Assembly: GCA_018712945.1 (NCBI GenBank)
Contig: DVFZ01000084.1
Coordinates: forward strand, 1-39,660
Direction: 5' to 3'
Origin: Candidatus Pullichristensenella stercorigallinarum
GTDB taxonomy: Bacteria > Bacillota > Clostridia > Christensenellales > Aristaeellaceae
Length of the DNA stretch: 39,660 nucleotides
Position 1 is the first letter of the stretch, and each line of letters opens with the position of its first letter. The notes under the pieces were generated by a model. That model ran no database searches, was not told the origin of the DNA, and saw only the letters and a program-made list of their open reading frames with translations. A program made the translations under genes and the position numbers. This document shows positions 1 through 14,302 of this stretch, one piece after another.

Positions 1-182
1 CTTTTGCCCGCGCAGCCAATGAAGCTGAGTTTAACGCCTATATCGCGAACTGTCAGGCCCGCGCGCTCTATGATACCGGGAAGACGGCCTCGTATGGGGA
101 TAAGCTGCTCACGCTGTCCACCTGCGAATACAGCCAGAAGAACGGGCGCATGGTGGTGGTCGCCAGAAGAATGGACGCATGA
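1..182 (+). CDS. Class B sortase, C-terminal fragment (5' end outside window)
   Basis: An open frame enters from the left edge (codons in phase with base 3) and stops at the TGA at 180-182. The visible 59 residues end in the class B sortase signature: TLSTC with the catalytic Cys at 123-125, then the Arg of GRMVVV at 147-149, which matches the catalytic Arg position of the family. Class B sortases are membrane-anchored cysteine transpeptidases that join surface proteins to peptidoglycan; in Tn1549/CD1107-type conjugative elements one is commonly carried among the mating-apparatus genes. The next gene starts 13 bp downstream, so the two are probably co-transcribed. The N-terminus, membrane anchor and catalytic His are not visible. 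Confidence 0.85.
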   Translation, partial: FARAANEAEFNAYIANCQARALYDTGKTASYGDKLLTLSTCEYSQKNGRMVVVARRMDA

Positions 183-195
183 CGGAGGGAAACAC

Positions 196-2382
196 ATGGC
201 ACGAAAAGTATATAAGGCGCGCAGCCTGCCTCTCCGCGGGGGTATCCGCGGCGGGCGCGCGGATGAGAACGCGCGCCCATCAAGGCGCAGGCGCACCGGC
301 AAAACGGACGCAGAACACGAACGCCTCCGCGCAAGAGAAAAGGGGGTTGAAGACAGCGCCATTGCAGAGCGCGGCGGAGACAGGCCGGCTGTTGAGGAGC
401 CGGAAGAGGGCGCTTCGAGGCGTCTTTCCCATCGGGCGGAGGCCGCTGAAGCGCATACCGGCTCAATTAAGGCACAAAAGCATCGAAGACGCCTGCGGCA
501 TGGCGCGGAGGAAACGCGGAGTATTTCCAGAACCGAAGAAACCTTTGACACTTTTGGGGGAAACGGCGCTGGGGAAAGAACGGCCAAACCTGGCCGTCAA
601 ACTGCCGGCGCTCCGGCTGTCCGCGGGAGAGCGGCGCAGGTTGAATCTGGCAATGCCCGGAAACAGCGCCAGCGCAAGCAGGCCGGGTCTTTCCGACAGG
701 CGGAGAAGGACGCGAGCGCAGCCGCCGAAAGTTTTGAGAGGATCACAGACACGGAGATCAAACGGACTTCGGAGATCGCCTCTTTTCAAAAACGCACGCG
801 CCTGAATCACAGCGACGAGGAAAGCGCCATGGCGCATGGCGCTGGCCGTCTGGCCCGCAAGACCGCCTCGATGATGGGCGCTGCCGCTATGCAGGCGGCG
901 AAGCGCAGGCGGTCTGAGGCGGAGGAAGACAACGCCGCTGTGGAGGCGGTTCACAGCGGTACGGCTGCGGTATACAACGCGGCACGCTATCACTCCCCTC
1001 CCAGCAAAACAGTGGCCAATTCCAAACGGGCGGCTAGCCTCCACAAAAACACGATTCGCAGCGAGGAGAACGTTCGCTCCGAATTTATGAAATCATCCGA
1101 ACACGCGGCGCAGGCCGAGCACCGAAAAAAGGAACGGATTCTTTCTTTTCAAAAGAAAAAACGCCAGCGCGCGATTGACGAAGCGAAGCGGAAAGGATCA
1201 ACCATCGTCACCGCGGGCGGCTTTGCCGCCTCACCCAACAGCATGTTTACCGCGCCGAAAAAGGCCAAGGAAGCTGCGAAGTCCTTCTTTTCGGAGCATA
1301 AGGGGGCGATCCTGGGAATATGCGTGGCCGGGCTGATCTTTGGGCTGTTCGCGCTGGCGTTGTCCAGCGGCGCGTCTTTGGTGCAGGGCAGCGGCACGAC
1401 GGTGATCTCAACGACCTACGTCAGTACGGATGATGACATCTATGCCGCGGAGAACGCCTATTGCGCCCTGGAGGATGGGTTGAACGCCCAGGTAAACGCG
1501 ATTCCGTCCACGCATCCGGGGTATGACGATTACGAATACCAGATCGACGAGATCGAGCACAATCCCTATAATTTGATCTCTTACATTCAGGTGAAATACG
1601 GAGGGTTCACATACGACGATACGGTGAAAGCAGAAATCAGCCGTCTGTTCCAGCAGCAGTATGCGTTTTCTGTCTCCGAAAAGAGCGAGACGCGGACACG
1701 CATGGAAACCGTCACGGAAATGCAAACGGTCTTCGATCCAAGCACCGGAGAAACGCGCGTGGAACCGGTTGAATATGAGCGGGAAGTTGAATATCAGCAC
1801 CGCACGCTGTACACCGTATTGACCAACCATAGCTTTGACCGCGTTGCCCGCGCAAATATGACCGATGAGGAACTTATCCTGTACAATGCGCTGAACCGTA
1901 CCTATGGCAACAGGCCCTATCTGTTTGACCTTTCTTCCCTGTCAGACGGCGCAGGCATACAATATAAGATTCCGCCGGAAGCGCTGTCCGATGAAAAATT
2001 CATGAACATGCTCCGTGAAGCGGAAAAATACCTGGGAATGGAGTATGTCTGGGGCGGAAAAAGCCCCCGAAGCGGTTTTGACTGCTCCGGTTTCGTCTGC
2101 TGGGTGATCAACCACTGCGGCAATGGCTGGGATGTCGGCTCGAAGCGCGCCAAAGACCTCTGCCGCATGTGCATCTACGTTACGCCCGAAGAAGCCCGGC
2201 CCGGCGACCTGATTTTCTTTGAAAAGACCTATGATACGGATGGCGCATCCCATGTAGGCATCTATGTGGGCAACAATACGATGATCCACTGCGGAAACCC
2301 CATCAAGTACGGGCGCATTGATACGCGCTATTTCAAACAGCACTTCCTGTGCTTTGGCCGGCTCCCGTTCTACGACAACTGA
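196..2382 (+). CDS. ICE membrane-anchored NlpC/P60 (C40) cell-wall hydrolase
   Basis: 728 residues. The ATG at 196 is chosen because GGAGG lies just upstream at 183-187 and the previous gene ends at 182; the frame is open further upstream but overlaps the sortase. Residues 1-~365 are extremely basic, Ala/Arg/Lys/Glu-rich and probably cytoplasmic. One membrane segment spans about 371-393. An extracytoplasmic linker follows, then an NlpC/P60 domain from about 600 to the end. The papain-like triad is visible as Cys630 (DCSGFV), His686 (SHVGIYVG) and His698 (IHCGNP). Such endopeptidases open peptidoglycan for the conjugation machinery, as CwlT does in Tn916; CD1107-family elements encode one in this position. 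The long charged N-terminus is larger than in the textbook enzymes and has no function I can assign. Confidence 0.88.
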   Translation: MARKVYKARSLPLRGGIRGGRADENARPSRRRRTGKTDAEHERLRAREKGVEDSAIAERGGDRPAVEEPEEGASRRLSHRAEAAEAHTGSIKAQKHRRRLRHGAEETRSISRTEETFDTFGGNGAGERTAKPGRQTAGAPAVRGRAAQVESGNARKQRQRKQAGSFRQAEKDASAAAESFERITDTEIKRTSEIASFQKRTRLNHSDEESAMAHGAGRLARKTASMMGAAAMQAAKRRRSEAEEDNAAVEAVHSGTAAVYNAARYHSPPSKTVANSKRAASLHKNTIRSEENVRSEFMKSSEHAAQAEHRKKERILSFQKKKRQRAIDEAKRKGSTIVTAGGFAASPNSMFTAPKKAKEAAKSFFSEHKGAILGICVAGLIFGLFALALSSGASLVQGSGTTVISTTYVSTDDDIYAAENAYCALEDGLNAQVNAIPSTHPGYDDYEYQIDEIEHNPYNLISYIQVKYGGFTYDDTVKAEISRLFQQQYAFSVSEKSETRTRMETVTEMQTVFDPSTGETRVEPVEYEREVEYQHRTLYTVLTNHSFDRVARANMTDEELILYNALNRTYGNRPYLFDLSSLSDGAGIQYKIPPEALSDEKFMNMLREAEKYLGMEYVWGGKSPRSGFDCSGFVCWVINHCGNGWDVGSKRAKDLCRMCIYVTPEEARPGDLIFFEKTYDTDGASHVGIYVGNNTMIHCGNPIKYGRIDTRYFKQHFLCFGRLPFYDN

Positions 2383-2452
2383 TACACGACGTTTGAAGCA
2401 AATACCGCACCATGCAAGAAACAGGCACATCCTGCCGGAAAGCGAGAAGAAC

Positions 2453-3112
2453 ATGAAAAAGCACACGATTTTGAGCATCATCAGGCGCATCGCCCTGTTG
2501 ACCACCATGACCGCCCTGTGCGTGGGCATGCCCGCGCACGCCATCGTTCCCAGCGAGGCCGATGAAGATACCGAACCGGCGGAAATCATCGAGGTTTCGC
2601 CAACACCCACACCCACGCCGGATATTCTCTACGAGCCGCTGCCGGAGGGTACCTCCCAGCCCTTCTCCATTGCCGGAAACGGCGAAGTCCTCGACGATAT
2701 TGAGGATGGCGATAAAGAATTTTATACCATCACCACGCAGAACAACAATCAGTTTTTCATCGTTGTGGACAAGGCGCGCGCGTCGGAAAATGTCTATATG
2801 CTGGCGCGCGTCGATGAAACGGATATCGCTGGATTCATCGAAGGATACACGCAGCCCACCGCAACGCCCGCGCCGCAGGTCGTCATTCAGCAGCCTACGC
2901 CCGAACCCACGCCCCAGGTAATCGTGACGGAGCCGGAGGAAGAAACTGGCGGCAACACCGGCTCCTACGCGCTGATCGGCGTCGCGGCCCTGGTTTTCAT
3001 TGCCGGCGCGTATTACTTCAAGGTTTATAAGCCCAGGCATGAAGAAGGCGAATATGACGACGAGGGTATGGAGTTCGACGACAGTGAAGACGAAACGGAC
3101 GACGGTGAGTAA
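2453..3112 (+). CDS. DUF4366 (CD1107-family) mobile-element membrane protein
   Basis: 219 residues. It starts at the ATG at 2453, preceded by a weak AGCGAGAAG; this choice places a signal peptide at residues 1-30 (MKKH start, hydrophobic core, AHA cleavage motif). A Thr/Pro stretch (SPTPTPTPD, about 48-57) leads into the DUF4366 core (DGDKEFYTITTQNNNQFFIVVD, seen in pieces at about 84-106). A second Pro/Thr-rich linker comes before a membrane segment at about 170-192 and a very acidic cytoplasmic tail. DUF4366 proteins occur almost only in conjugative elements of Clostridia, next to the C40 hydrolase, and are thought to belong to the mating-pair apparatus; the biochemical role is unknown. The DUF4315 gene and topoisomerase III gene often found nearby in Tn1549 relatives are absent here. 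Confidence 0.82.
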   Translation: MKKHTILSIIRRIALLTTMTALCVGMPAHAIVPSEADEDTEPAEIIEVSPTPTPTPDILYEPLPEGTSQPFSIAGNGEVLDDIEDGDKEFYTITTQNNNQFFIVVDKARASENVYMLARVDETDIAGFIEGYTQPTATPAPQVVIQQPTPEPTPQVIVTEPEEETGGNTGSYALIGVAALVFIAGAYYFKVYKPRHEEGEYDDEGMEFDDSEDETDDGE

Positions 3113-3145
3113 GGCGTCCGCCGCGCCGCCGAGGAGGTGAGGCAA

Positions 3146-6100
3146 ATGGCAAAATTGGACAGTATCCGCTTTCTCGCCGGGCGTTGGGCCGGCTGGGTCA
3201 GCCAGTCGCCGGCGGACTGGATGCGCTTTATGGATACGGCCTCCCGCATGTACCGGTATTCCTTCCCGGATCAGCTTTTGATCTATGCCCAACGTCCGAA
3301 CGCCACGGCCTGCGCGTCTCTTGAAACATGGAACACAAGGCTCAACCGCTGGGTCAACCGGGGCGCAAAGGGCATCGCTTTGATAGACGACAACCAGCAG
3401 CCGGCAAAGCTGCGCTACGTCTTCGATGTGGCGGATACCCATGCTCGATATGGCGACCGGCTTCCCTATATCTGGCGTGTGGAGGGGCGGCACATCCCGC
3501 CGCTCCTGGCGCACCTGGCGTATACCTACAGCCTGCCGGACGCTTCCTCCCTGGAATCCATGCTCAGCCAGATCGCAAATCAGGTCGCCGAAGACTATCT
3601 CGACGACGCCCTGTATGGTATCGAGCAGGAAATGACCGGCTCCCGGCTCGCCCAACTTCCAGAGGCGCGAAGAAGAGAAATCTTTCACGACCTGTTTGAA
3701 AGCAGCATCCTCTATGAAACGATGCGGCGTTGCGGCCTCAACCCTGAAACGGCGCTCCCAGAGCGGACGTTTAATAACATCCGCTATTTTAACCGCCCCC
3801 GCATACTTGGCGTGCTGGGCGGCGCGGTCAGCAATGCCTGCGAAAATATCCTCATGGATATTGGGCGGGAAATTCGCGCCATTGACAGGGAAAATTTGCG
3901 TATCCCTCTTGCAAAAAGAGAAAACATGGTATATAATGACTTTAATGTGGTAAAGCGCGAAAGTGATACATCTGAAGGAGGCAATGAAAATGGAATTGAC
4001 GTATCAGCGCCAGGGAGATTACCTGTTTCCGAATCTGGAGATCGAATCGAGCGTGACGGAACCCATCGGCCGGTTCGGGATGCAGCGGAAGGCCTATCTG
4101 AAGGAGCATCATCCGGGTTGGTATCAGAGCATGTTGCTGACGGGCAGGCTGGACGGGCACCTGTTGGAGATCGACCGGAGCGCGAACGCGCGGATGGAAC
4201 TGCTGACAAGCCAGATGGCAGAGCGGGAGGACGTGACGGAAGCCCTGAAAGAGACGAACCAGTTGGAGTGGGTGCAGCGGATGAACAATATACGCAGCCG
4301 GGCGGAGGAGATCGTGCTGACGGAGTTGATTTACAACTGATCGAAACCGCGCCAGACGGCCAGCCGGAGGAAACAACCGAAGATATACGCGAGGCAGAAG
4401 CGGAAGCAGCTTCTGCCTTTGCTTTGCCCGGACTGCCTACCGTTCAGCGGCAAATTCACGAAATTGAAGAGCGCGCGGCGGCGGTCTACGCGGGAACGCT
4501 GCCTTTTCCGGCGGATGTTGTGGACGAAATCCTTCGCACCGGCGGCAACCGCTCAGGAACGTTGTATCGTCTGACGTACAATTTCATGGTCGGCCAATCG
4601 CGGGATGAGCGGGTAGAATACGTCCGGCAGGAATACCGCACAGGCGGCAAGGGCTTTACCATAAACGGCGCAGACTATGCCGTTTGGTTTGACCGTTCCG
4701 GCATGCAGATCGCGCGGGGCCGCACGGTGCATACCGCGCCGCACAACACCGCGTTTTTGTCCTGGGAACAGGTAACGGATCGGATTCATCAACTGCTTCA
4801 GCAGGGCGAATTTGCGCCCCAGGCAACGTTGGAAGGCGCGCGCGACTACGTTCTCAAAGCCTGCGCACAGGCGCTGGTCTATATGGAGAGGGATGTCGAA
4901 CAGGAATACAAGCCCCTGTTGTTTGACGATCCTGATCTTTTTGCCGGGACTTTCCCCGAAGCGGTTGAGAGGGGCGCGGCCTTTCTGGAGGTACAGGAAA
5001 ATATCGGTATGCTGACCGCCCGGCTGCAAACATTCGCGGATCAGTATGCCCAGAACCGCGAAATGATGCGCTCTCCCACCTATAACCCCACCCGCATGTC
5101 CGCCGTGTTCGAGCGCCTTGCAAGGCCATGGGCAGCCTATCAGAGCAGGGAGGACTTTCATCCGCAGGAACCGGCTACGTTCATTACCGAAGACGAGGTG
5201 GACGCGGCGCTTACAGGCGGCGCTCTATACGAAAACAGCCGTCTGACAATCTATGCGTACTGGTTGACCACAGAGAGCAGAACAGAGCGCGCGTCATTTC
5301 TTCGCCAGCATTACGGCGAAGGCGGGCGCTCCCATGCCGTGTCCGGCGCGGATCAATCTGATGAAATGCACGGTGCCCGCGGCATAACGCTTCGCAAAGG
5401 CGCCGCCGTATACCGGCTGACATGGCCCAATGTTGTCCAGCGCATCGACGCGCTGATCCGAAACGATCTCTACCTGACCGCCAGCGATCATGCGAAGATG
5501 CCTGAGTACGAAAGGGGTGTTATGGCCGGAAGGATTCTGCACTTTTACAGGGAGCTTCCTTCCGATGTGCAAAGGCCGTTTCAGGGCGCATACGATCCGC
5601 GCCCGGAAATCGCCCGTATGCTGGAAAATACGGATAGCGCCATATCCTTGCTCAGCGCCATGACGGAGGCGATGACCGGGATACCTGAGGAAACGGAAGC
5701 CTTTGAACGGATCTCCAATATGCTGTTCCAGTTTTATGACTATGTGGACGGCAGCTACACGATTTTTCCTGAACCGCCGTGGAAAGCCACGCCCGAAAGG
5801 GAGCAGACGCGGCAGCTATCCATGTTTGACCAGTTTGAACTGCCCGGCGGTCTGCCGGATGAAAACGTGGTCAAAACAGAAGCGGAAGGCGTTTCGATTG
5901 TGGGCAATGAAGCGCAGGAAGAAACCGGCGTTGAAGGTTCTTCCCCGCCGGAAACCAGCGGGACGCTGTCGGAAAACGCGCAGCCCGATGAAGAACCGTC
6001 TGCCGCGGATGAAAAAGCCATCCATACGGCAGAAACGCCAGAGGAAGACAGCGGCGAACAGCTTCCTGAAAATGCTCCGGCCATTGGCCAGACCCTTCAT

Positions 6101-9100
6101 GTGGACGGCCGCTCTTACGAGATCGAATCCATCAGCACGCTCTCCAAAGAAGTCCACCTTCGCGACCTGGATTTCCAGCGTGAAAACGGCTATCCCATCT
6201 CCCGCGTGGAACCTTATTCCGTTGTTCAGGGCTGGCTGAAGGAGCAAGCCGAACCGTGGATTCCCGGCCATGAACCCGGCGAAGATTCGCCGCTCAAACT
6301 CGTTGAAACCGTCATCACCCTTGCGCCGCGTTCGGAACAGGAGGAACAGATTTCATCGCCGCCGGAACCGGAGCGCCACAATTTTCATATCACCGACGCC
6401 GGCCTCGGCGCGGGCGGCCCCAAGGCCAGGTTCCGCATGAACATGGAAGCCATCCTTCTGCTCAAACGCATTGAGGCGGAGGGGCGGCTGGCGACGCCGG
6501 AAGAACAGGAAACTCTGTCGCGCTATGTTGGCTGGGGCAGCGTGCAGGAAGCCTTTGAAGCGGATAATCCCGCCTGGAAAAATGAACACCGGCAGCTTCT
6601 GGACGCGCTGACCCCGGAGGAATTTGACGCGGCGCGGGCGACCACGCTGAACGCCTTTTACACCTCTCCCACCGTCATCCAAGCGATGTACGAAGCACTG
6701 GAAAATATGGGATTCCGCAAAGGCAATATACTGGAACCCTCCTGCGGCGTTGGCAATTTCATGGGCATGCTGCCGGAGAGCATGCGGGACGCCCGCATGT
6801 ACGGCGTAGAAATCGACAGCATCACTGGAAGAATCGCACAACAGTTGTACCAGCGCAATACCATTGCCGTACAGGGCTTTGAAGATACGAGCTTCCCGGA
6901 CAATTTCTTTGACGTGGTCATTGGAAACGTGCCCTTTGGCGCGTATAAGGTGATAGACCGGCAGTATGACCGGCACAATTTCCTGATTCACGATTACTTT
7001 ATCGCGCGGTCTGTAGACCTGGTGCGTCCGGGCGGCGTTGTCGCGGTGATTAGCTCCAGCGGCACCATGGACAAGCAATCGGACGGCATGCGCAGGTATG
7101 TGGCGGCGCGCGCTGATCTTCTCGGGGCCATTCGCCTGCCGCGCAATGCTTTTCAGCGCAATTCGGGCACCAGTGTCGTTACAGATGTCCTCTTCTTCCA
7201 AAAACGTGAAAGCGCGGCCATTGAACAGCCGGAATGGGTGGGGTTGGCCAAAACCCCGGAAGGTTTTGACATCAACGCCTACTTCGTCCGCCATCCTGAG
7301 ATGATTCTTGGCACGCTTTCTTCTGAAAATACGCAATACGCGGCGCAGGCGTTTACCGTGGAACCCATTCCCGGCGCAGATCTCGCGGAGCAGTTGCGCA
7401 AAGCCATGCAGAATATCCACGGAACCATCTTGGAAACGGAGCTTTCTGATACCGACCTGGAGGAAAACATCCAGTCGCTTCCCGCTGATCCCGAAGTCAG
7501 AAATTTCAGCTACACGGTTGTGAATGGGCGCATTTATTACCGGGAGAACTCCGTCATGAACCTTGTGGATCTGCCGCAAAATACGGCGGGCAGGGTCATG
7601 GCGCTGATCCAGATGCGCGACAGCGTGCGGCAGTTGCTCGACGCGCAGCTTGCGGATGCTTCGGACGCGCAAATCGAAGCCATGCAGCGGCGGCTTGACG
7701 CCCAGTATGACAATTTTACCCGCGCTTACGGCCTGATCAACACCACGGCCAACCGGCGCGCCTTCCAGCAGGACAGCGGCTACAGCTTGCTATCTTCCCT
7801 GGAAATACTGGATGAGGATGGGAGACTCAAACGCAAGGCGGATATTTTCACCAAGCGGACAATCCGCAAGCCTGAGCCTGTGGATAGCGTGGATACAGCC
7901 AGCGAAGCGTTGGCGCTGTCCATCGGGGAAAAAGCGTGCGTCGATCTGAAATTCATGTCTTCGCTGTGCGGCAAAACAGAACGGGAAATCACAGATGAAC
8001 TGCGGGGCGTCATCTTTCAAAATCCTGTCACCCATGTATGGGAAACCAGCGACGAGTATCTGTCCGGCGATGTGCGCCGGAAATTGCGCGAGGCAGAAGA
8101 CGCGGCCAATGCCGCGCCGGAATACGCCGTCAATGCGGAAGCGCTGCGGCGGGTACAGCCCAAAGAGTTGGATGCCTCCGAGATCGAAGTGCGCCTTGGC
8201 GCGACGTGGATAGACCCCGTTTACATCGACCGGTTTCTGCGCGACGTGCTTTCCGTGCCCGCATGGATGGCAGGGCGCACGATTCGTACACAGTATTCGC
8301 CTGTCTCCGGCGCGTGGAACATCAGCGGCAAGAGCAGCAATTCTGGCAACGCCCTGATCTATACGGTCTACGGCACGGAAAAGGCCAACGCCCTGCATCT
8401 GCTGGAAGACGCGCTGAACCTGAAGGACACCAAAATCTACATGACCGTACAGACGCTGGACGGCGAAAAGCGCGTGCTGGACAAAAAAGCCACGATCCTT
8501 GTCCAGCAGAAACAGGAAATGCTGCGCACCGCCTTCAAAGAGTGGATTTTTAAGGATATGAACAGGCGGGAAGCCCTTGTAAAGAAATACAATGAACTGT
8601 TTAATTCTGTGCGGCCGCGGGAGTATGACGGCAGCCACATCCGCTTTGTCGGGATGTCGCCGGAGATTTCGCTGATGCCGCACCAGAAGAACGCGGTAGC
8701 GCACATCCTGTATGGCGGGAACACGCTGCTGGCGCACTGCGTCGGCGCAGGCAAGACCTTCCAGATGATCGCCGCGGGCATGGAGGCCAGACGCCTGGGC
8801 CTTTCGCAGAAAAACCTCTACGTTGTTCCCAACCACTTGACAGAACAATGGGGCGCGGATTTCCTGCGGCTATACCCCGGCGCAAATATCCTGGTGGCGA
8901 CGCGGCGCGATTTTGAGCCGGCGAACCGAAAGAAGTTTTGTTCCCGCATTGCCACAGGGGATTACGACGCCATCATCATTGGACACTCGCAATTTGAAAA
9001 GATACCCATTTCCAGGGAACGCCAGTTGGCGATGCTGAAGAACCAAATCGACGATATTGCCGGGGCGATTGAAGAGGCGAAGCGGCAGCGCGGCGAGCGG

Positions 9101-11200
9101 TTTACCATCAAGCAGATGGAGCGCACGCGCAAGGGTCTGGAGGCCCGGCTTAAGAAACTCAACGATCAGAGCCGCAAGGACGATGTAGTGACCTTTGAGC
9201 AGTTGGGCGTTGACCGCCTGTTTGTGGACGAGAGCCATGCGTTCAAAAACCTGTTTCTATACACAAAGATGGTCAACGTGGCCGGCATCCAGCAGACGGA
9301 CGTGCAAAAAAGCTCGGATATGTTCCTCAAATGCCGGTATATGGATGAAATTACCGGTGGGCGCGGCATTGTCTTCGCCACGGGAACGCCCGTCTCCAAT
9401 TCCATGGTGGAACTGTATACCATCATGCGCTATCTGCAATATTCAACGCTGGAGCGCATGGGCATGCGGCATTTCGATTCCTGGGCGGCGACGTTTGGCG
9501 ATACTGTATCCGCAATAGAATTGGCCCCGGAAGGCACCGGCTACCGCGCCAGGACGCGCTTCGCCCGGTTCTTCAACCTGCCGGAATTGATTTCCGTATT
9601 CAAGGAGGCAGCGGATATTCAGACGGCGGATATGCTGTCGCTGCCTGTCCCGGAGGCGGAGTTTGTGAATGTCACCCTGAAGCCCAGCGAAATCCAACGG
9701 GAATATGTATCGTCCTTCTCGGAACGCGCGGACAGGGTGCGCAGCGGCGCGGTCGATCCCTCCGTAGACAATATGCTGCGTATTACCAATGACGGCCGGA
9801 AATGCGCGCTGGATCAGCGGCTGATGCAGGAAATGCTTCCGGACGACGAAGGCAGCAAGGTCAACGCCTGCGTGCGGAACGCCTTTGCCATCTGGCAGAG
9901 CGGCATAGAAAAACGGACGGCACAGCTCATCTTTTGCGACTTGTCCACGCCCAAGGGCGACGGCCGCTTCAACATCTATGACGATGTGCGCAACAAACTC
10001 GTCCAGATGGGCGTTCCCAGAGAGGAAATCGCCTTTATCCACGAAGCGGCGACGGAAACGCAGAAAGCGGAACTGTTTGCCCGCGTGCGCGCCGGACAGG
10101 TGCGTATCCTGCTGGGGTCTACGGCAAAACTCGGCGCGGGGACCAACGTACAGGACCGCCTGATCGCCCTGCATCATCTGGACGCGCCCTGGAAGCCCTC
10201 CGATCTGGAACAGCAGGAAGGCCGGATTCTGCGTCAGGGCAATATGAATCCAAAAGTGCAGATTTTCCGCTATGTGACGGAAGGCTCTTTCGACGCCTAT
10301 ATGTGGCAAATATTGGAAACCAAGCAGAAGTTCATTGCGCAAGTTATGACGAGCAAAAGCCCTGTGCGCGCCTGTCAGGACGTGGACGACACGGCGCTGT
10401 CCTACGCGGAGATCAAGGCGCTGGCGACAGGCAACCCTGAGATCAAGCAAAAGATGGATTTGGATATTCAGGTCGCGCGGCTGAAAATGCTGAAAGCGAA
10501 CCATGTTTCCCAGCATTACCGGCTGGAAACCGACATCGCGAGAACCTATCCGTCGCAGATCACTGCGGAAAAAGAGCGCATAGAAAATCTATCGCGGGAC
10601 ATTGCCGCCTGCCAGCCCATTCTGGAACGGGAAAAGGATCATTTCCAGATTACCATCGCCGGGAAAAGTTATACGGGCCGCAAGGAGGCAGGCACGGCGT
10701 TGATTCAAGCCTGCACGTCTTCCGGGCAGGGAGCGCGGGAGTTTCCCGTCGGCGAATACGGCGGCTTCCGGCTGACGGGCAGCTACGATCTGTTTTCCCA
10801 TAAGTACGAATTGACCGTCCACGGGCACGGCTCCTACGCCTTTGAACTCGGCGCTGACCCGTTCGGCAATCTCACGCGCCTGAACAACGTTTTTTCAGGC
10901 TTGCAGGGCAAGCTGGAACAGGCGCAGCAACGGCTTGCCACGGCAGAGGAGCAGTTGGAGAACGCCAAGCGTGAAGTGAACCGCCCCTTCCCGCAGGAAC
11001 AGGAACTCGCGGAGAAACAGGCACAGCTTATAGAACTGAACGCCCGCCTGAACATTGACGAGCGCTCATCCGAGGCGTCGCTGATCGACGGAGACGCCTT
11101 GGAGGAAAAATCCGAAGCGCCGGAGACCGCCGATGCCGCGGACGCGCCGGAGAAAGCCGTTCAAGGTCAGTCCGGCAGGCATTGTCAGGCCGTCATATAG
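3146..11200 (+). CDS. Giant ICE DNA methyltransferase / SNF2-like helicase
   Basis: 2,684 residues. Start is the ATG at 3146 with GAGGAGGTGA at 3131-3140; an in-frame GTG at 3137 lies inside that ribosome-binding site. Order: N-terminal element-specific domain (about 1-250); low-complexity Gly/Asp/Arg linker (about 260-400) that overlaps tnpV in another frame; repeated accessory domains; Rossmann methyltransferase with motif I LEPSCGVGNF (from 1196) and NVPF (1261-1264) in place of the adenine-methylase NPPY; superfamily-2 helicase with Walker A GAGKT (Lys1870), DESH (2028-2031), TGTP motif III and motif VI QQEGRILRQG (from 2356). The C-terminal part is coiled-coil-like and acidic. Such proteins are hallmarks of Tn1549-like elements, where protection or processing of transferred DNA has been suggested. 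NVPF is family-typical, so methylation activity is uncertain. Confidence 0.9.
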   Translation: MAKLDSIRFLAGRWAGWVSQSPADWMRFMDTASRMYRYSFPDQLLIYAQRPNATACASLETWNTRLNRWVNRGAKGIALIDDNQQPAKLRYVFDVADTHARYGDRLPYIWRVEGRHIPPLLAHLAYTYSLPDASSLESMLSQIANQVAEDYLDDALYGIEQEMTGSRLAQLPEARRREIFHDLFESSILYETMRRCGLNPETALPERTFNNIRYFNRPRILGVLGGAVSNACENILMDIGREIRAIDRENLRIPLAKRENMVYNDFNVVKRESDTSEGGNENGIDVSAPGRLPVSESGDRIERDGTHRPVRDAAEGLSEGASSGLVSEHVADGQAGRAPVGDRPERERADGTADKPDGRAGGRDGSPERDEPVGVGAADEQYTQPGGGDRADGVDLQLIETAPDGQPEETTEDIREAEAEAASAFALPGLPTVQRQIHEIEERAAAVYAGTLPFPADVVDEILRTGGNRSGTLYRLTYNFMVGQSRDERVEYVRQEYRTGGKGFTINGADYAVWFDRSGMQIARGRTVHTAPHNTAFLSWEQVTDRIHQLLQQGEFAPQATLEGARDYVLKACAQALVYMERDVEQEYKPLLFDDPDLFAGTFPEAVERGAAFLEVQENIGMLTARLQTFADQYAQNREMMRSPTYNPTRMSAVFERLARPWAAYQSREDFHPQEPATFITEDEVDAALTGGALYENSRLTIYAYWLTTESRTERASFLRQHYGEGGRSHAVSGADQSDEMHGARGITLRKGAAVYRLTWPNVVQRIDALIRNDLYLTASDHAKMPEYERGVMAGRILHFYRELPSDVQRPFQGAYDPRPEIARMLENTDSAISLLSAMTEAMTGIPEETEAFERISNMLFQFYDYVDGSYTIFPEPPWKATPEREQTRQLSMFDQFELPGGLPDENVVKTEAEGVSIVGNEAQEETGVEGSSPPETSGTLSENAQPDEEPSAADEKAIHTAETPEEDSGEQLPENAPAIGQTLHVDGRSYEIESISTLSKEVHLRDLDFQRENGYPISRVEPYSVVQGWLKEQAEPWIPGHEPGEDSPLKLVETVITLAPRSEQEEQISSPPEPERHNFHITDAGLGAGGPKARFRMNMEAILLLKRIEAEGRLATPEEQETLSRYVGWGSVQEAFEADNPAWKNEHRQLLDALTPEEFDAARATTLNAFYTSPTVIQAMYEALENMGFRKGNILEPSCGVGNFMGMLPESMRDARMYGVEIDSITGRIAQQLYQRNTIAVQGFEDTSFPDNFFDVVIGNVPFGAYKVIDRQYDRHNFLIHDYFIARSVDLVRPGGVVAVISSSGTMDKQSDGMRRYVAARADLLGAIRLPRNAFQRNSGTSVVTDVLFFQKRESAAIEQPEWVGLAKTPEGFDINAYFVRHPEMILGTLSSENTQYAAQAFTVEPIPGADLAEQLRKAMQNIHGTILETELSDTDLEENIQSLPADPEVRNFSYTVVNGRIYYRENSVMNLVDLPQNTAGRVMALIQMRDSVRQLLDAQLADASDAQIEAMQRRLDAQYDNFTRAYGLINTTANRRAFQQDSGYSLLSSLEILDEDGRLKRKADIFTKRTIRKPEPVDSVDTASEALALSIGEKACVDLKFMSSLCGKTEREITDELRGVIFQNPVTHVWETSDEYLSGDVRRKLREAEDAANAAPEYAVNAEALRRVQPKELDASEIEVRLGATWIDPVYIDRFLRDVLSVPAWMAGRTIRTQYSPVSGAWNISGKSSNSGNALIYTVYGTEKANALHLLEDALNLKDTKIYMTVQTLDGEKRVLDKKATILVQQKQEMLRTAFKEWIFKDMNRREALVKKYNELFNSVRPREYDGSHIRFVGMSPEISLMPHQKNAVAHILYGGNTLLAHCVGAGKTFQMIAAGMEARRLGLSQKNLYVVPNHLTEQWGADFLRLYPGANILVATRRDFEPANRKKFCSRIATGDYDAIIIGHSQFEKIPISRERQLAMLKNQIDDIAGAIEEAKRQRGERFTIKQMERTRKGLEARLKKLNDQSRKDDVVTFEQLGVDRLFVDESHAFKNLFLYTKMVNVAGIQQTDVQKSSDMFLKCRYMDEITGGRGIVFATGTPVSNSMVELYTIMRYLQYSTLERMGMRHFDSWAATFGDTVSAIELAPEGTGYRARTRFARFFNLPELISVFKEAADIQTADMLSLPVPEAEFVNVTLKPSEIQREYVSSFSERADRVRSGAVDPSVDNMLRITNDGRKCALDQRLMQEMLPDDEGSKVNACVRNAFAIWQSGIEKRTAQLIFCDLSTPKGDGRFNIYDDVRNKLVQMGVPREEIAFIHEAATETQKAELFARVRAGQVRILLGSTAKLGAGTNVQDRLIALHHLDAPWKPSDLEQQEGRILRQGNMNPKVQIFRYVTEGSFDAYMWQILETKQKFIAQVMTSKSPVRACQDVDDTALSYAEIKALATGNPEIKQKMDLDIQVARLKMLKANHVSQHYRLETDIARTYPSQITAEKERIENLSRDIAACQPILEREKDHFQITIAGKSYTGRKEAGTALIQACTSSGQGAREFPVGEYGGFRLTGSYDLFSHKYELTVHGHGSYAFELGADPFGNLTRLNNVFSGLQGKLEQAQQRLATAEEQLENAKREVNRPFPQEQELAEKQAQLIELNARLNIDERSSEASLIDGDALEEKSEAPETADAADAPEKAVQGQSGRHCQAVI
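3990..4340 (+). CDS. tnpV: TnpV-family transposon protein nested in the helicase gene
   Basis: 116 residues, in the +1 frame relative to the surrounding helicase gene and entirely inside it. AAGGAGG at 3975-3981 sits 8 bp before the ATG at 3990; an ATG at 3984 is too close. The protein matches the TnpV pattern: start MELTYQRQGDYLFPNL, then GRFGMQRKAYLKEHHPG, then SMLLTGRLDGHLLEIDR, and end MNNIRSRAEEIVLTELIYN. TnpV was named in Tn4451/Tn4453 and its role is not established; it is small and charged. Codons in this frame look like a real gene (GC-rich third positions, ordinary amino-acid mix), whereas the helicase frame here reads as Gly/Asp/Arg/Pro low complexity. A dual-coding region is therefore likely, with tnpV the more constrained frame. 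Expression of both frames is inferred. Confidence 0.72.
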   Translation: MELTYQRQGDYLFPNLEIESSVTEPIGRFGMQRKAYLKEHHPGWYQSMLLTGRLDGHLLEIDRSANARMELLTSQMAEREDVTEALKETNQLEWVQRMNNIRSRAEEIVLTELIYN

Positions 11201-11285: not shown

Positions 11286-12941
11286 TTGGAAGAAATCCGT
11301 TTTGAAATCTTACAGCTAAAAGACGAATTCAGAGAGCGGCGGTTCAGAGGTCTCCGGGAATTATCTCAGAAAGGCTTTACTGTCAACGCGGAACAGTACA
11401 GACAGGTGTACAGCGGCGTCTGCCCGCCGGACGTATTGCCGGACGATATTTTCGCCCGGTTCAATCTTGACAGGCCGGAGGATTTTCACGGCTGGTCATT
11501 GTCGGTCGGCGATGTCATTCTTCTGCATCAGAACGACGGCAGCCACGCTTATTTTGTAGACAGCTTCGGCATTGAAGAAATACCGGGATTTGCAGGCCGG
11601 CACATCCTGGAAACATTGCCGGCGCAGGAAACGCAGGAACCACCCAGGACGATGCTGATAACCGTCCGCAGGGCGGCCAGAGACGAGCAGAACTTTGCCT
11701 ACACGCAGGATGACGCCACCCTCGCCGCAAGCGGCGCAATCGGGCATCTGCGGGTCGATATGGGACAGGGCGGCGAGGAGTTTTATGCGGATTGGACAGA
11801 CCATGCCGCCAGCGGGCTCCCGGAGGGCTTTAACGCTTATCTCGACGCGCTGATCTCAACGTTGCGCACAAATCCCGCGTTTGACAAAATGCTCGAAAGC
11901 CGGGAGGCCCTGAGCAGATATTGTTATGGTCATCGCGTCGGCAAAATCCCGGACGAAGACAACAGCTACGCTTTCCGCGTGGATGGCGGCGAATATTCCG
12001 TGCTCCTGCGCCTGACGCCCAACCGCGGCGAACACAACGTATACGCCTACTGCTACAGCCGGGAAGCGCTCGACAGGACGCTGGCTGAAATGCAGGACGC
12101 CAGGGCGCAGGCTTATGCGCCGGTCTACCTGCACAGCGCGGCCTATGCGCGCGAGGCCGGCGAATTGGAGGCATGGCGCGCATCGCACAAAGAGAACGTC
12201 GCCTGCCGCGAGGCCATCGACGGGGCAATCGCCAAATACTTTGACGGCGCGCATCTGGACAGCCGCGCGGCCAGCGAGGTGCTTGACGCCTATGGCGCGG
12301 AGCGTGTGTCTTGGGTGCTCGCCAACTCGGTGATCACAAAGGAGTACGACGGGCGCTTCTCCCGCGGCAATCGCGCCTGGGCGCAGGCCGAAAACATCGC
12401 CATCGACTGGACGAAACTGGGGTATGTCCACAACGACGAATTTGCCTCGCGATCGCATCCGGCGGTGCTGGATGGATACTCCACTTATTCCTTCATATCT
12501 TTTGTTCTCCTGCCGCGCGGGGATGCCATCCTGCAAACGCAATGGCTGCAATTTTCCATTGCAGCCACAGCATTAGCATGTTTCCTTTTAACCCAGATCG
12601 CTTGCAGATGGGCTTCGCCCAGGCGGTATTTCTATTTACTTCAGCTCCACGCCGTATATCAGCACATACTGTGGGTCGGACTCGTTGCCGCTGTAGCCGG
12701 CGATCTTGTCCGTGTTGTAGACCGCAAGGTCGTGCGCGTTTGTAACCGGTACAGCGAGGCATTCATCGGCGATTGTGGAGAGGATTTCATTGTAGTACGC
12801 CTGCACATTATTCTGATCCGTTTCGGCGTTCAGCCGGTCGATCAGCGCGCCGTTCTCCATGCAGGGCGCCCACAGCATCGCAACGGGATCCGTGGAGTTA
12901 TCCGGCTGGATGTTTGTGATCAGCGAATACGGGTCGAATGA
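11286..12941 (+). CDS. YodL / DUF3849 ICE protein, C-terminus replaced by antisense read-through
   Basis: Start is a TTG at 11286, 7 bp after GGAGGG (11273-11278); no usable ATG exists upstream of the first domain. Residues about 40-105 form a YodL-type domain (FNLDRPEDFHGWSLSVGDV, YFVDSFG). Residues about 277-400 are DUF3849 (YLHSAAYAREAGELEAWR, HLDSRAASEVLDAYG, SHPAVLDG), which normally ends shortly after the SHPAVLDG motif. From about 12,485 (residue ~400) the open frame continues for some 150 residues, the last part exactly antisense to the binding-protein gene 12636-14255, and has no family features. I read this as a native gene cut at or near its 3' end by a recombination junction, with an accidental foreign tail. 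Function of DUF3849 proteins is unknown; they follow the helicase in Tn1549-like elements. Confidence 0.75.
   Translation: MEEIRFEILQLKDEFRERRFRGLRELSQKGFTVNAEQYRQVYSGVCPPDVLPDDIFARFNLDRPEDFHGWSLSVGDVILLHQNDGSHAYFVDSFGIEEIPGFAGRHILETLPAQETQEPPRTMLITVRRAARDEQNFAYTQDDATLAASGAIGHLRVDMGQGGEEFYADWTDHAASGLPEGFNAYLDALISTLRTNPAFDKMLESREALSRYCYGHRVGKIPDEDNSYAFRVDGGEYSVLLRLTPNRGEHNVYAYCYSREALDRTLAEMQDARAQAYAPVYLHSAAYAREAGELEAWRASHKENVACREAIDGAIAKYFDGAHLDSRAASEVLDAYGAERVSWVLANSVITKEYDGRFSRGNRAWAQAENIAIDWTKLGYVHNDEFASRSHPAVLDGYSTYSFISFVLLPRGDAILQTQWLQFSIAATALACFLLTQIACRWASPRRYFYLLQLHAVYQHILWVGLVAAVAGDLVRVVDRKVVRVCNRYSEAFIGDCGEDFIVVRLHIILIRFGVQPVDQRAVLHAGRPQHRNGIRGVIRLDVCDQRIRVE
12486..12635. other. Element/operon junction region with a stem-loop
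   Basis: This stretch lies between the last recognisable DUF3849 codons and the stop of the binding-protein gene on the other strand. It holds a perfect 9-bp stem (12543-12551 with 12559-12567, 7-nt loop). The stem could end transcription of the minus-strand operon, but neither side has a clear T-run. No insertion sequence, target duplication or attachment site was recognised, so the mechanism of the junction is unknown; an assembly join cannot be excluded. Confidence 0.5.
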
Positions 12942-14255
12942 GCCGCCATAGGTGTAGTACAGATTGACATCGTATTCCCCGGTCATCATCGATCCGTACC
13001 ATGTCATCATATCGCTGCCCACGACGTTTACGCCAAAGCCTATATCCTCCAGCTCGCCGGCGATTGCCAGCACGGCGTCGTCTAGCGTTGCAAAGCTTTG
13101 GCTGTAGATAAACGTGAGCACAATCGGCTCGCCGTCTATTTCGCGCACACCGTCGCCGTCCGTGTCGGCATAACCCACCTCGTCCAGCAGCGCGTTGGCC
13201 GTCTCGGCATCCGTGGGGTAGGTCTTTACCTCCACATCGCAGTAAGGCTTGGACGGATCGAACAGCGTTTCCGCCGCAGTCTCGACGCCGCCGAAGATTG
13301 CCTCGCTGATGAGCGCCTGATCGATGGCATACGCCACGGCCTGCCGCGCGGCCAGGTTGTCAAACGGCGCTTTGGCTACGTTCAGCGCCAGGAAGCGCGT
13401 CTGCTGCGTCGCTTCGCCGATCGTCGCGCCAAATCCGTCCGTCCCCATCAGATCAATAAAGCCGTCATAGCTGATGCGCGACGTGCCGAGTATGGCGTCG
13501 ATCTCCCCGGAGCGAAGCGCGAGTATCTTGGCGTCATTGTCCGCGATCACCTTGACCCGGAAGCTCTCCACATCCGGCGCTTCACCCCAGAAATACGGGT
13601 TCTGAACGAACGTATAGGTGTTGTCGGAAACGCTCTCGAACATGTACGGCCCCGTGCCCGCCGTCTTGTCCATGCAGTATTCAAACGCGCCCGCGTTGCC
13701 GTCCGCAAAGGCCTCGCTGTTGACGACGGCCATGGGGACGCACATGGTGAGGTCGTTCAGCACTCCATAATAGGGCTGTGATAGCTTCATGACGAATGTG
13801 GCGTCGTCCGGCGTATCCATACTGGCGATAATGGCGCTGAGTTTTCCATAGGAGCCATTGTAAGCGCCCAGGTTCTCTATGGCGCCCTCGAAGCTCGCCT
13901 TCACATCCTCGCTGGTCAGATCTGAGCCGTCGGAGAACTTCACGCCGTCCCGCAACGTAAAAGTGTAGGTAAGGCCATCGTCCGAAACCGTCCAGCTTTC
14001 GGCGAGCTCGCCGGCGATCTCGCCGGCTTCGTCATAAGCGACCAGCGTTTGATAAAAGTTGCGCGTCCAGTAAGCAATGCCGTAATTGGTCGAGGTGCTC
14101 GGGCTGAGCACCGGATAAAAGCCCGCGTCAAACGTCCAGTTTTCGGTCACGGTGATGCTCCTGTCCGCCTCTGCGGCCGCATGGCCTACCCCGCTCAGGC
14201 CCAGCATCATGACAAATGCCAATGCCAACGTCAATACTCGGATGGATGGTTTCAT
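12636..14255 (-). CDS. Opp/Nik-family ABC substrate-binding protein (SBP_bac_5)
   Basis: 539 residues. Start is the ATG at 14255, about 10 bp after AAAGGGG; an in-frame TTG at 14264 lies too close to that site. A secretion signal covers about residues 1-26 (hydrophobic core LALAFVMMLGLSGVG, then HA-AA). The mature protein has family 5 solute-binding features: YQTLVAYDEAGEIAGELAESW, the TFTLRDGVKFSDGSDLTSEDV block, and RQAVAYAIDQALI. Relatives bind peptides, nickel complexes or opine metallophores. It is the last gene of the minus-strand operon, 47 bp after the second ATPase, and supplies the receptor for that importer. Odd: there is no lipobox Cys after the signal, although Gram-positive binding proteins are usually lipoproteins. 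The substrate cannot be read from the sequence. Confidence 0.88.
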   Translation of the reverse strand: MKPSIRVLTLALAFVMMLGLSGVGHAAAEADRSITVTENWTFDAGFYPVLSPSTSTNYGIAYWTRNFYQTLVAYDEAGEIAGELAESWTVSDDGLTYTFTLRDGVKFSDGSDLTSEDVKASFEGAIENLGAYNGSYGKLSAIIASMDTPDDATFVMKLSQPYYGVLNDLTMCVPMAVVNSEAFADGNAGAFEYCMDKTAGTGPYMFESVSDNTYTFVQNPYFWGEAPDVESFRVKVIADNDAKILALRSGEIDAILGTSRISYDGFIDLMGTDGFGATIGEATQQTRFLALNVAKAPFDNLAARQAVAYAIDQALISEAIFGGVETAAETLFDPSKPYCDVEVKTYPTDAETANALLDEVGYADTDGDGVREIDGEPIVLTFIYSQSFATLDDAVLAIAGELEDIGFGVNVVGSDMMTWYGSMMTGEYDVNLYYTYGGSFDPYSLITNIQPDNSTDPVAMLWAPCMENGALIDRLNAETDQNNVQAYYNEILSTIADECLAVPVTNAHDLAVYNTDKIAGYSGNESDPQYVLIYGVELK

Positions 14256-14302
14256 TTTTCGCAATCCCCTTTCTGTTGCTTGATAATTGTATCATTCCGC
14301 CT

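Follow-up and report, generated by a model that had tools for sequence, protein, structure and literature searches.

A tnpV gene nested in the +1 frame of a giant helicase gene in Candidatus Pullichristensenella stercorigallinarum and related Firmicutes

A giant helicase gene of Candidatus Pullichristensenella stercorigallinarum contains, in its +1 frame, a complete tnpV gene. Both frames are under selection, so this DNA is very probably translated twice. The window, by which we mean the whole stretch of DNA analysed, comprises 39,660 nucleotides of contig DVFZ01000084.1 (assembly GCA_018712945.1). The original prediction was of a recognisable TnpV protein with its own AAGGAGG site inside an unbroken helicase frame, and this is borne out by the open reading frames and by a match to the TnpV family PF14198 of 148.5 bits (cut-off 27) that covers the profile at full length, positions 1-111 of 111. 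The features of the window that concern us are as follows.

4..2382, + strand: NlpC/P60 ORF of the same element as the helicase (PF00877, 77.5 bits; start position provisional)
2318..3112, + strand: CD1107-like mobile element protein, the upstream neighbour (PF14283, 74.3 bits)
3137..11200, + strand: giant helicase gene, an uninterrupted ORF of 2687 codons
3152..3892, + strand: conserved N-terminal domain of the helicase (324.5 bits against profile A2, which includes this domain)
3899..4459, + strand: helicase linker, residues 255-441, predicted disordered (pLDDT under 50)
3909..3937, + strand: predicted sigma-70-like promoter TTGCAA-17-TATAAT within the helicase frame (10 of 12 matches)
3975..3981, + strand: Shine-Dalgarno site AAGGAGG, 8 bases upstream of the ATG at 3990
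3990..4340, + strand: tnpV in the helicase +1 frame, 116 amino acids plus stop (PF14198)
4502..4846, + strand: helicase residues 456-570, the first conserved segment past the linker, structured in the AlphaFold2 model
11286..12941, + strand: YodL/DUF3849 ORF downstream of the helicase, its 3' part overlapping an antisense SBP_bac_5 gene

The helicase gene and the tnpV within it

Three Pfam domains score above cut-off in the helicase (Eco57I, 29.2 bits; SNF2-rel_dom, 30.4 bits; Helicase_C, 28.1 bits), so that a methylase-type domain and an SNF2 helicase share one chain, the combination that marks the polyvalent methylase-SNF2 proteins. Its layout runs from a weakly matched ArdC-like N domain through the linker and more segments to an Eco57I-like methyltransferase and an SNF2-related helicase. 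The ArdcN match in the window helicase (E 0.033) is under the cut-off; six of the 28 rows of profile A2 match at E ≤ 0.1, the best at 0.00032, and distant plasmid homologues are annotated as ArdC-like. Given these domains and the CD1107-like, NlpC/P60 and YodL/DUF3849 neighbours, the sequence is best read as that of a polyvalent-type methylase-helicase belonging to a conjugative element, such as PMC5512222 describes. With the polyvalent ArdC-N/DNA methylase/SWI2-SNF2 proteins of that paper, as far as its available text goes, it shares the methylase-SNF2 dyad, the YodL neighbour and possibly an ArdC-like N domain; in the proteins described there an LPD36 domain precedes the methylase, and the dyad is proposed to protect transferred DNA. 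The available text of PMC5512222 uses neither of the terms TnpV and overlap, whereas here the low-complexity linker would be explained by a second gene. The YodL/DUF3849 ORF enters DNA antisense to the SBP_bac_5 gene (12639-14264), and the element apparently ends or is cut near 12.4-12.6 kb.

The ORF that contains tnpV (3963..4340, + strand) is wholly within the helicase ORF; besides the ATG at 3990 it has a second in-frame ATG at 3984. The helicase residues beneath tnpV had been placed at about 282-398 and described as low in complexity; they are indeed rich in Gly, Asp, Glu and Arg, with pLDDT below 50, although the range is 285-401. A pattern noted for the linkers of related helicases, ADEQY..GGGDRAD..DLQL, is, as had been proposed, the out-of-frame reading of the TnpV C-terminus, MNNIRSRAEEIVLTELIYN. 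Searches of NCBIfam with TnpV gave no match at E ≤ 0.01. The source genome has three TnpV matches over cut-off, and all three are nested in helicases. The two further helicases, each with a tnpV nested in the same frame, are those of loci L001 (C83:105961-106293) and L003 (C4:42488-42802).

The two products of the overlap are predicted to differ in structure. AlphaFold2 models TnpV with a mean pLDDT of 88.9 as a beta hairpin followed by helices, a model with no structural match at E ≤ 0.001 among the PDB and viral structures searched. In a model of helicase residues 1-688 (13-row alignment), pLDDT falls below 50 at 255-441 and is mostly above 70 on either side, and the tnpV overlap is entirely within this predicted disordered tether. 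From these pLDDT values, the overlap is predicted to encode a folded protein in the TnpV frame and a disordered one in the helicase frame. The helicase would be made by reading through the overlap and TnpV from its own predicted internal ribosome site; that both products are made is inferred from sequence. The helicase may tolerate a second gene here because the stretch would serve only as a flexible tether from the N domain to the next segments.

Recurrence of the nested gene

Earlier searches led by TnpV and by the helicase yielded both nested and free copies of tnpV; the 103 distinct nested ones are all in one relative frame. Profile A2, by comparison, is the helicase N domain alone (28 rows) and was chosen to avoid selecting helicases via their tnpV. 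It was run against two genome sets, 391 from the class and 398 from the phylum, with matches in 101 and 30 genomes, respectively, and 100 regions, which include near-identical copies, were sampled: 80 from the class search (69 stronger matches and 11 weaker ones picked by eye from a longer list) and 20 from the phylum. In 93 of the 100 regions an ORF of at least 90 codons follows the N domain in the +1 frame; the helicase frame runs open through it in 91 and is broken in two (L175 and L204). Three other regions are cut by contig ends, one (L223) has a truncated helicase with a tnpV fragment, and three (L233, L234 and L241) have an open helicase without a nested ORF. Where the helicase frame is open and there is enough DNA to assess, the nested ORF is present in 91 of 94 regions. 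Scored with the TnpV profile, 85 of the 93 ORFs reach at least 40 bits, four fall between 15 and 40, and four below 15. Since 91 of 100 regions fetched through the N domain share the place and frame of this ORF, and the other shifted frame (+2) at the same place is open for a mean of 9 codons in those 91 (maximum 52), comparison of these sequences indicates that the nested tnpV is no local accident.

The pattern named beforehand as counter-evidence, a kept linker with a stop-broken +1 frame, was not seen among the 100 sampled regions, and the three open helicases without a nested ORF have short linkers. These measure 73, 74 and 103 amino acids, as against a median of 173 in 81 nested loci, a comparison that leaves out nested values of 450 or more; L199 is an outlier, nested with a linker of 71. 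The set used for an N-domain tree has five rows of 114 without a nested ORF (L016, L020, L233, L234 and L241), although it was fetched partly via TnpV and is thus not a fair sample; three more loci, cut short, were left out of it. L020 lies outside the 100-region sample and its N domain is 22% identical to that of the window, and the helicase frame of L016 ends 57 codons past the N domain, in DNA that by eye resembles an integrase gene.

The arrangement extends to distant helicases. The N domain of the window is 22-66% identical to the other 27 rows of A2, and the row of lowest identity with a nested tnpV is L003, at 24%. The most distant regions sampled (L242-L252) also carry +1 ORFs, and profile A3, an alignment of 10 of those 11 ORFs, matches TnpV with a probability of 97.3 and E 2.8e-11; scored singly, L248, L251 and L252 are over the Pfam cut-off and L242, with 17.4, is below the cut-off of 27. 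A +1 ORF is likewise found in SNF2-related genes of Enterococcus faecalis plasmids (L309 and L311), in a Listeria SNF2-related gene (L314) and in a Listeria plasmid gene annotated as ArdC-like (L310), with TnpV scores of 29.6 bits for L309, 50 for L311 and 29 for L314 (cut-off 27). The gene tables of these four loci, which are known to be incomplete, give no separate gene at the +1 ORF.

Two ArdC-like proteins not annotated as SNF2 helicases served as controls; that of pCF10 (L313) has no nested ORF of at least 60 amino acids, and that of Metabacillus (L312) gave no TnpV match. For a Monoglobus plasmid (L307) and a Cohnella plasmid (L305), the gene table, known to be incomplete, has TnpV and lacks the overlapping helicase frame; in L307 the helicase frame has a stop in the N domain.

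Substitution, codon choice and start signals in the overlap

Substitutions were compared in 22 pairs, each locus being used once, with N-domain nucleotide identities of 0.70-0.97. At helicase codon positions 1/2/3 the N domain shows 602/429/1570 differences over 5294 codons and the overlap 561/285/220 over 2512 codons, a one-base shift of periodicity as expected of constraint dominated by TnpV. At the helicase wobble position the overlap changes at 0.295 times the rate seen in the N domain (bootstrap 95% interval 0.244-0.344); at the TnpV wobble position, which is helicase position 1, the figure is 0.753 of the N-domain wobble rate (0.686-0.821). For the window, the GC fractions at helicase positions 1/2/3 are 0.588/0.433/0.662 ahead of the overlap, 0.812/0.573/0.350 inside it and 0.662/0.443/0.652 beyond it. 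Synonymous substitution and codon-position GC were among the measures originally proposed for judging dual coding, and both came out in its favour, helicase-wobble change falling to 0.30 of the N-domain rate and the GC pattern moving by one base inside the overlap. As both this comparison and the survey (91 of 94 nested) agree with the earlier suggestion that dual coding is an old and conserved feature of these elements, we take it to be so on sequence grounds.

Constraint from the helicase side can be followed at four-fold degenerate TnpV sites, where the choice of T alters the helicase residue. The frequencies of T, by the helicase codon concerned, are as follows.

Cys: nested tnpVs 0/466, free tnpVs 157/436, helicase N-domain frame 422/1490
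Trp: nested 9/184, free 33/128, N-domain frame 76/382
Tyr: nested 30/861, free 122/659, N-domain frame 277/1274
Ser: nested 183/919, free 164/909, N-domain frame 343/1964, nested and free being about equal
Stop: nested 0/1618 (a zero largely built in, because nested copies are defined by an open spanning frame), free 151/1332, N-domain frame 553/2972

The avoidance of Cys, Trp and Tyr is not built into the definition of nested, and because nested tnpVs avoid the codons that would give a helicase Cys at all 466 sites, both frames of the overlap are under selection. The 84 distinct free tnpVs have a mean of 3.8 stops in the frame equivalent to that of the helicase, and at least one in 82 of 84. 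Real linkers are also more alike than random reshuffles synonymous for TnpV (Stouffer z 5.3 by BLOSUM, 17 of 20 pairs positive). Restricting the reshuffles to stop-free ones gives a z of 3.3 by BLOSUM, with 14 of 20 pairs positive and six in the opposite direction, and of 3.6 by identity, with 13 pairs positive and seven opposite. As stop-free reshuffling lowers the signal in this way, the helicase-side constraint in the linker is real yet mostly compositional, with modest conservation beyond composition.

Signals for separate expression of tnpV are frequent. Using starts picked independently of Shine-Dalgarno sites (two of 100 nested loci have no ATG near the profile start), at least five of six matches to AGGAGG are present at 72 of 98 nested starts, as against a background of 7.0% for the 4746 other ATGs that these genes have in the +1 frame. 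Of 100 nested genes, 58 have a promoter-like pair with at least 9 of 12 matches in the 120 bases upstream, where 10.5 are expected from codon shuffles, and 42 lack one; the 58 cases are not independent because the nested copies are related, and for this count the start was chosen partly by the Shine-Dalgarno site. By the same criterion free tnpVs have 12 of 83 against 8.2 expected, and in the window itself one site was found in the promoter stretch with 1.0 expected by chance. A promoter of this predicted kind within the helicase frame could let tnpV be expressed apart from the helicase.

These results bear on three other accounts of the overlap. Low-complexity linker DNA can leave long open frames, and the +1 ORF might be a passive shadow of a biased helicase linker and no gene at all; we find this hardly credible, as the +1 product belongs to a recognised family with free-standing members, the constraint in the overlap follows the TnpV frame, and Shine-Dalgarno sites at the starts are far above background. 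It is very improbable, too, that only tnpV is translated, with the spanning helicase frame accidental and the helicase made in separate pieces. In line with that account, the sequence of the linker frame shows weak conservation and constraint from TnpV prevails, but codon contexts yielding a helicase Cys, Trp or Tyr are avoided by nested tnpVs, free ones showing no such avoidance, and the shadow frame that is stop-broken in 82 of 84 free tnpVs corresponds to a helicase frame open in 91 of 94 assessable helicases. A frameshift fusion, in which TnpV would be joined to the helicase N domain and have no start of its own, has a similarly slim chance: of 100 nested loci, 18 have a TnpV frame that stays open as far back as the N domain, whereas in the other 82 a stop in that frame intervenes between the N domain and the TnpV start, which argues against fusion, and tnpV starts with its own Shine-Dalgarno site and ATG. 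Double translation of the overlap is the reading that we carry forward.

Role, known relatives and origin of TnpV

The nested TnpV has the size and C-terminal motif of the aligned free members of its family, which is known from Tn4451, Tn6104-Tn6106 and similar elements. In the available text of PMC3158075 the published members are given as separate genes, whereas here tnpV is wholly within a gene whose frame shapes its codons; an excision role for the Tn4451 protein is only postulated there, by homology to lambda Xis. The main rival to our reading of TnpV is built on that postulate and has the nested protein as an excision or directionality factor of a recombinase, its place in the helicase merely tying tnpV to the element. 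Free tnpV adjoins large serine recombinases in both loci examined (L253 and L254), and the TnpV homologue P0073 also bears PF12728, as would suit such a factor; we nevertheless hold it to be unlikely, if a serious contender, since plasmid helicases of Enterococcus and Listeria retain the nested form, and a lasting need for excision is less obvious there, and the predicted TnpV fold has no solved-structure match at E ≤ 0.001. Excisionases like lambda Xis have a winged-helix DNA-binding fold; the TnpV model, a beta hairpin and then helices, was compared with solved structures through the PDB-wide search. P0073 is a protein of 191 amino acids in which TnpV stands together with PF12728, a domain that we take to be excisionase-like. 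The role that we favour as the likeliest, and the most speculative of our proposals, is that TnpV is a small helical partner of a DNA-transfer (possibly anti-restriction) helicase and not a dedicated excisionase, a reading preferred because the pair stays together even on plasmids.

Overlapping genes are known as a kind, and as in other overprinted pairs we find two long open frames, one within the other, with selection on both. The overprinted genes of Escherichia coli (PMC5810103, PMC4683798) likewise place a second protein gene inside another, but in the available text they are presented as novel or recent, with laoB antiparallel, whereas tnpV shares its strand with the helicase, is a member of a widespread family and turns up repeatedly among distant Firmicutes. 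Annotation pipelines usually exclude long overlaps, and few bacterial pairs have been described, according to the accessible part of PMC5810103. The snf2 genes of streptococcal ICEs are a similar kind of gene; the accessible text of PMC12942858 and PMC9815147 describes them as insertion hot spots (integration in snf2 being demonstrated by conjugation in PMC12942858) and mentions TnpV only as cargo of the inserted elements, whereas the Enterococcus plasmid SNF2 genes of L309 and L311 bear a nested +1 TnpV-like ORF. In the literature on TnpV, overlapping genes and snf2/ArdC elements that is available without subscription, and as far as its accessible text goes, we found no description of tnpV within a helicase, and the accessible parts of four papers that mention TnpV (PMC3158075, PMC9815147, PMC10782964 and PMC11913394) do not describe the nested arrangement. 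As far as we have seen, a widely conserved, same-strand, fully nested pair with a member of a recognised family is new. The hidden gene is of such a family, keeps its position in almost all the related helicases sampled and carries a clear two-frame signature of selection; it would account for the odd Gly/Asp/Arg linker in a common protein of conjugative elements. By implication, the annotation of such elements lacks a protein, as on the Enterococcus and Listeria plasmids. The pair is also a natural test case for the evolution, on shared codons, of one protein that is predicted to fold and another that is predicted to be disordered.

A tree built from 157 TnpVs has low resolution, 69 of its 154 inner branches being drawn open; free clades lie inside nested ones at several places, with 12 label changes compared to a mean of 52.3 on shuffling. 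In L018 the DNA upstream of a free tnpV still reads as helicase (FDRENPQIPLAKTESLVYNEFSALKRES, matching residues 244 to 395 of the helicase query) and keeps TTGCAA-17-TATAAT, and a large serine recombinase adjoins the gene (region L253); this is likely a nested tnpV captured as a cassette. Reverse traffic also seems to exist. In L254, at 7900-9080 (approximate ends), an element with its own free tnpV and large serine recombinase apparently sits in the last codons of a nested tnpV, and it appears to break both the helicase frame and that tnpV. L254 resembles the sort of event required if the nested copy of the window came from a free tnpV that had recently inserted into the helicase, and TnpV-carrying elements are reported to insert in snf2 genes in the accessible text of PMC9815147. 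Recent insertion is nonetheless extremely unlikely, given that site and frame are the same down to N domains 24% identical (L003) and across the 100-region sample, and that L018 points the other way, being a free tnpV that still has helicase-coded sequence and the promoter upstream. Among relatives of the window helicase no empty, uninterrupted linker at the tnpV site was seen.

The original prediction went further and had the linker arise from, or around, tnpV. The linker lengths fit this idea, which is a possible one; divergent free-standing TnpV-like genes also exist, and with these and a weakly resolved tree either the nested or the free form may have come first. We would put forward only as a tentative possibility that the TnpV family lives primarily hidden in the polyvalent helicases of Firmicutes conjugative elements, having been born by overprinting of a disordered linker, double-coded through the divergence of ICEs and plasmids, and repeatedly exported with its internal promoter as free cassettes.

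Genomes of the same order hold divergent TnpV-like genes (L315-L344; for example, YGKYGTLAKQYLEEH... in L316), most of which lie outside helicases. Not every divergent TnpV is nested, as 26 of 30 loci with weak PF14198 matches have no spanning frame. The other four comprise L320 and L335, which are nested in divergent helicases, L342, with a short frame at the same offset, and L329, with a frame at the other offset.
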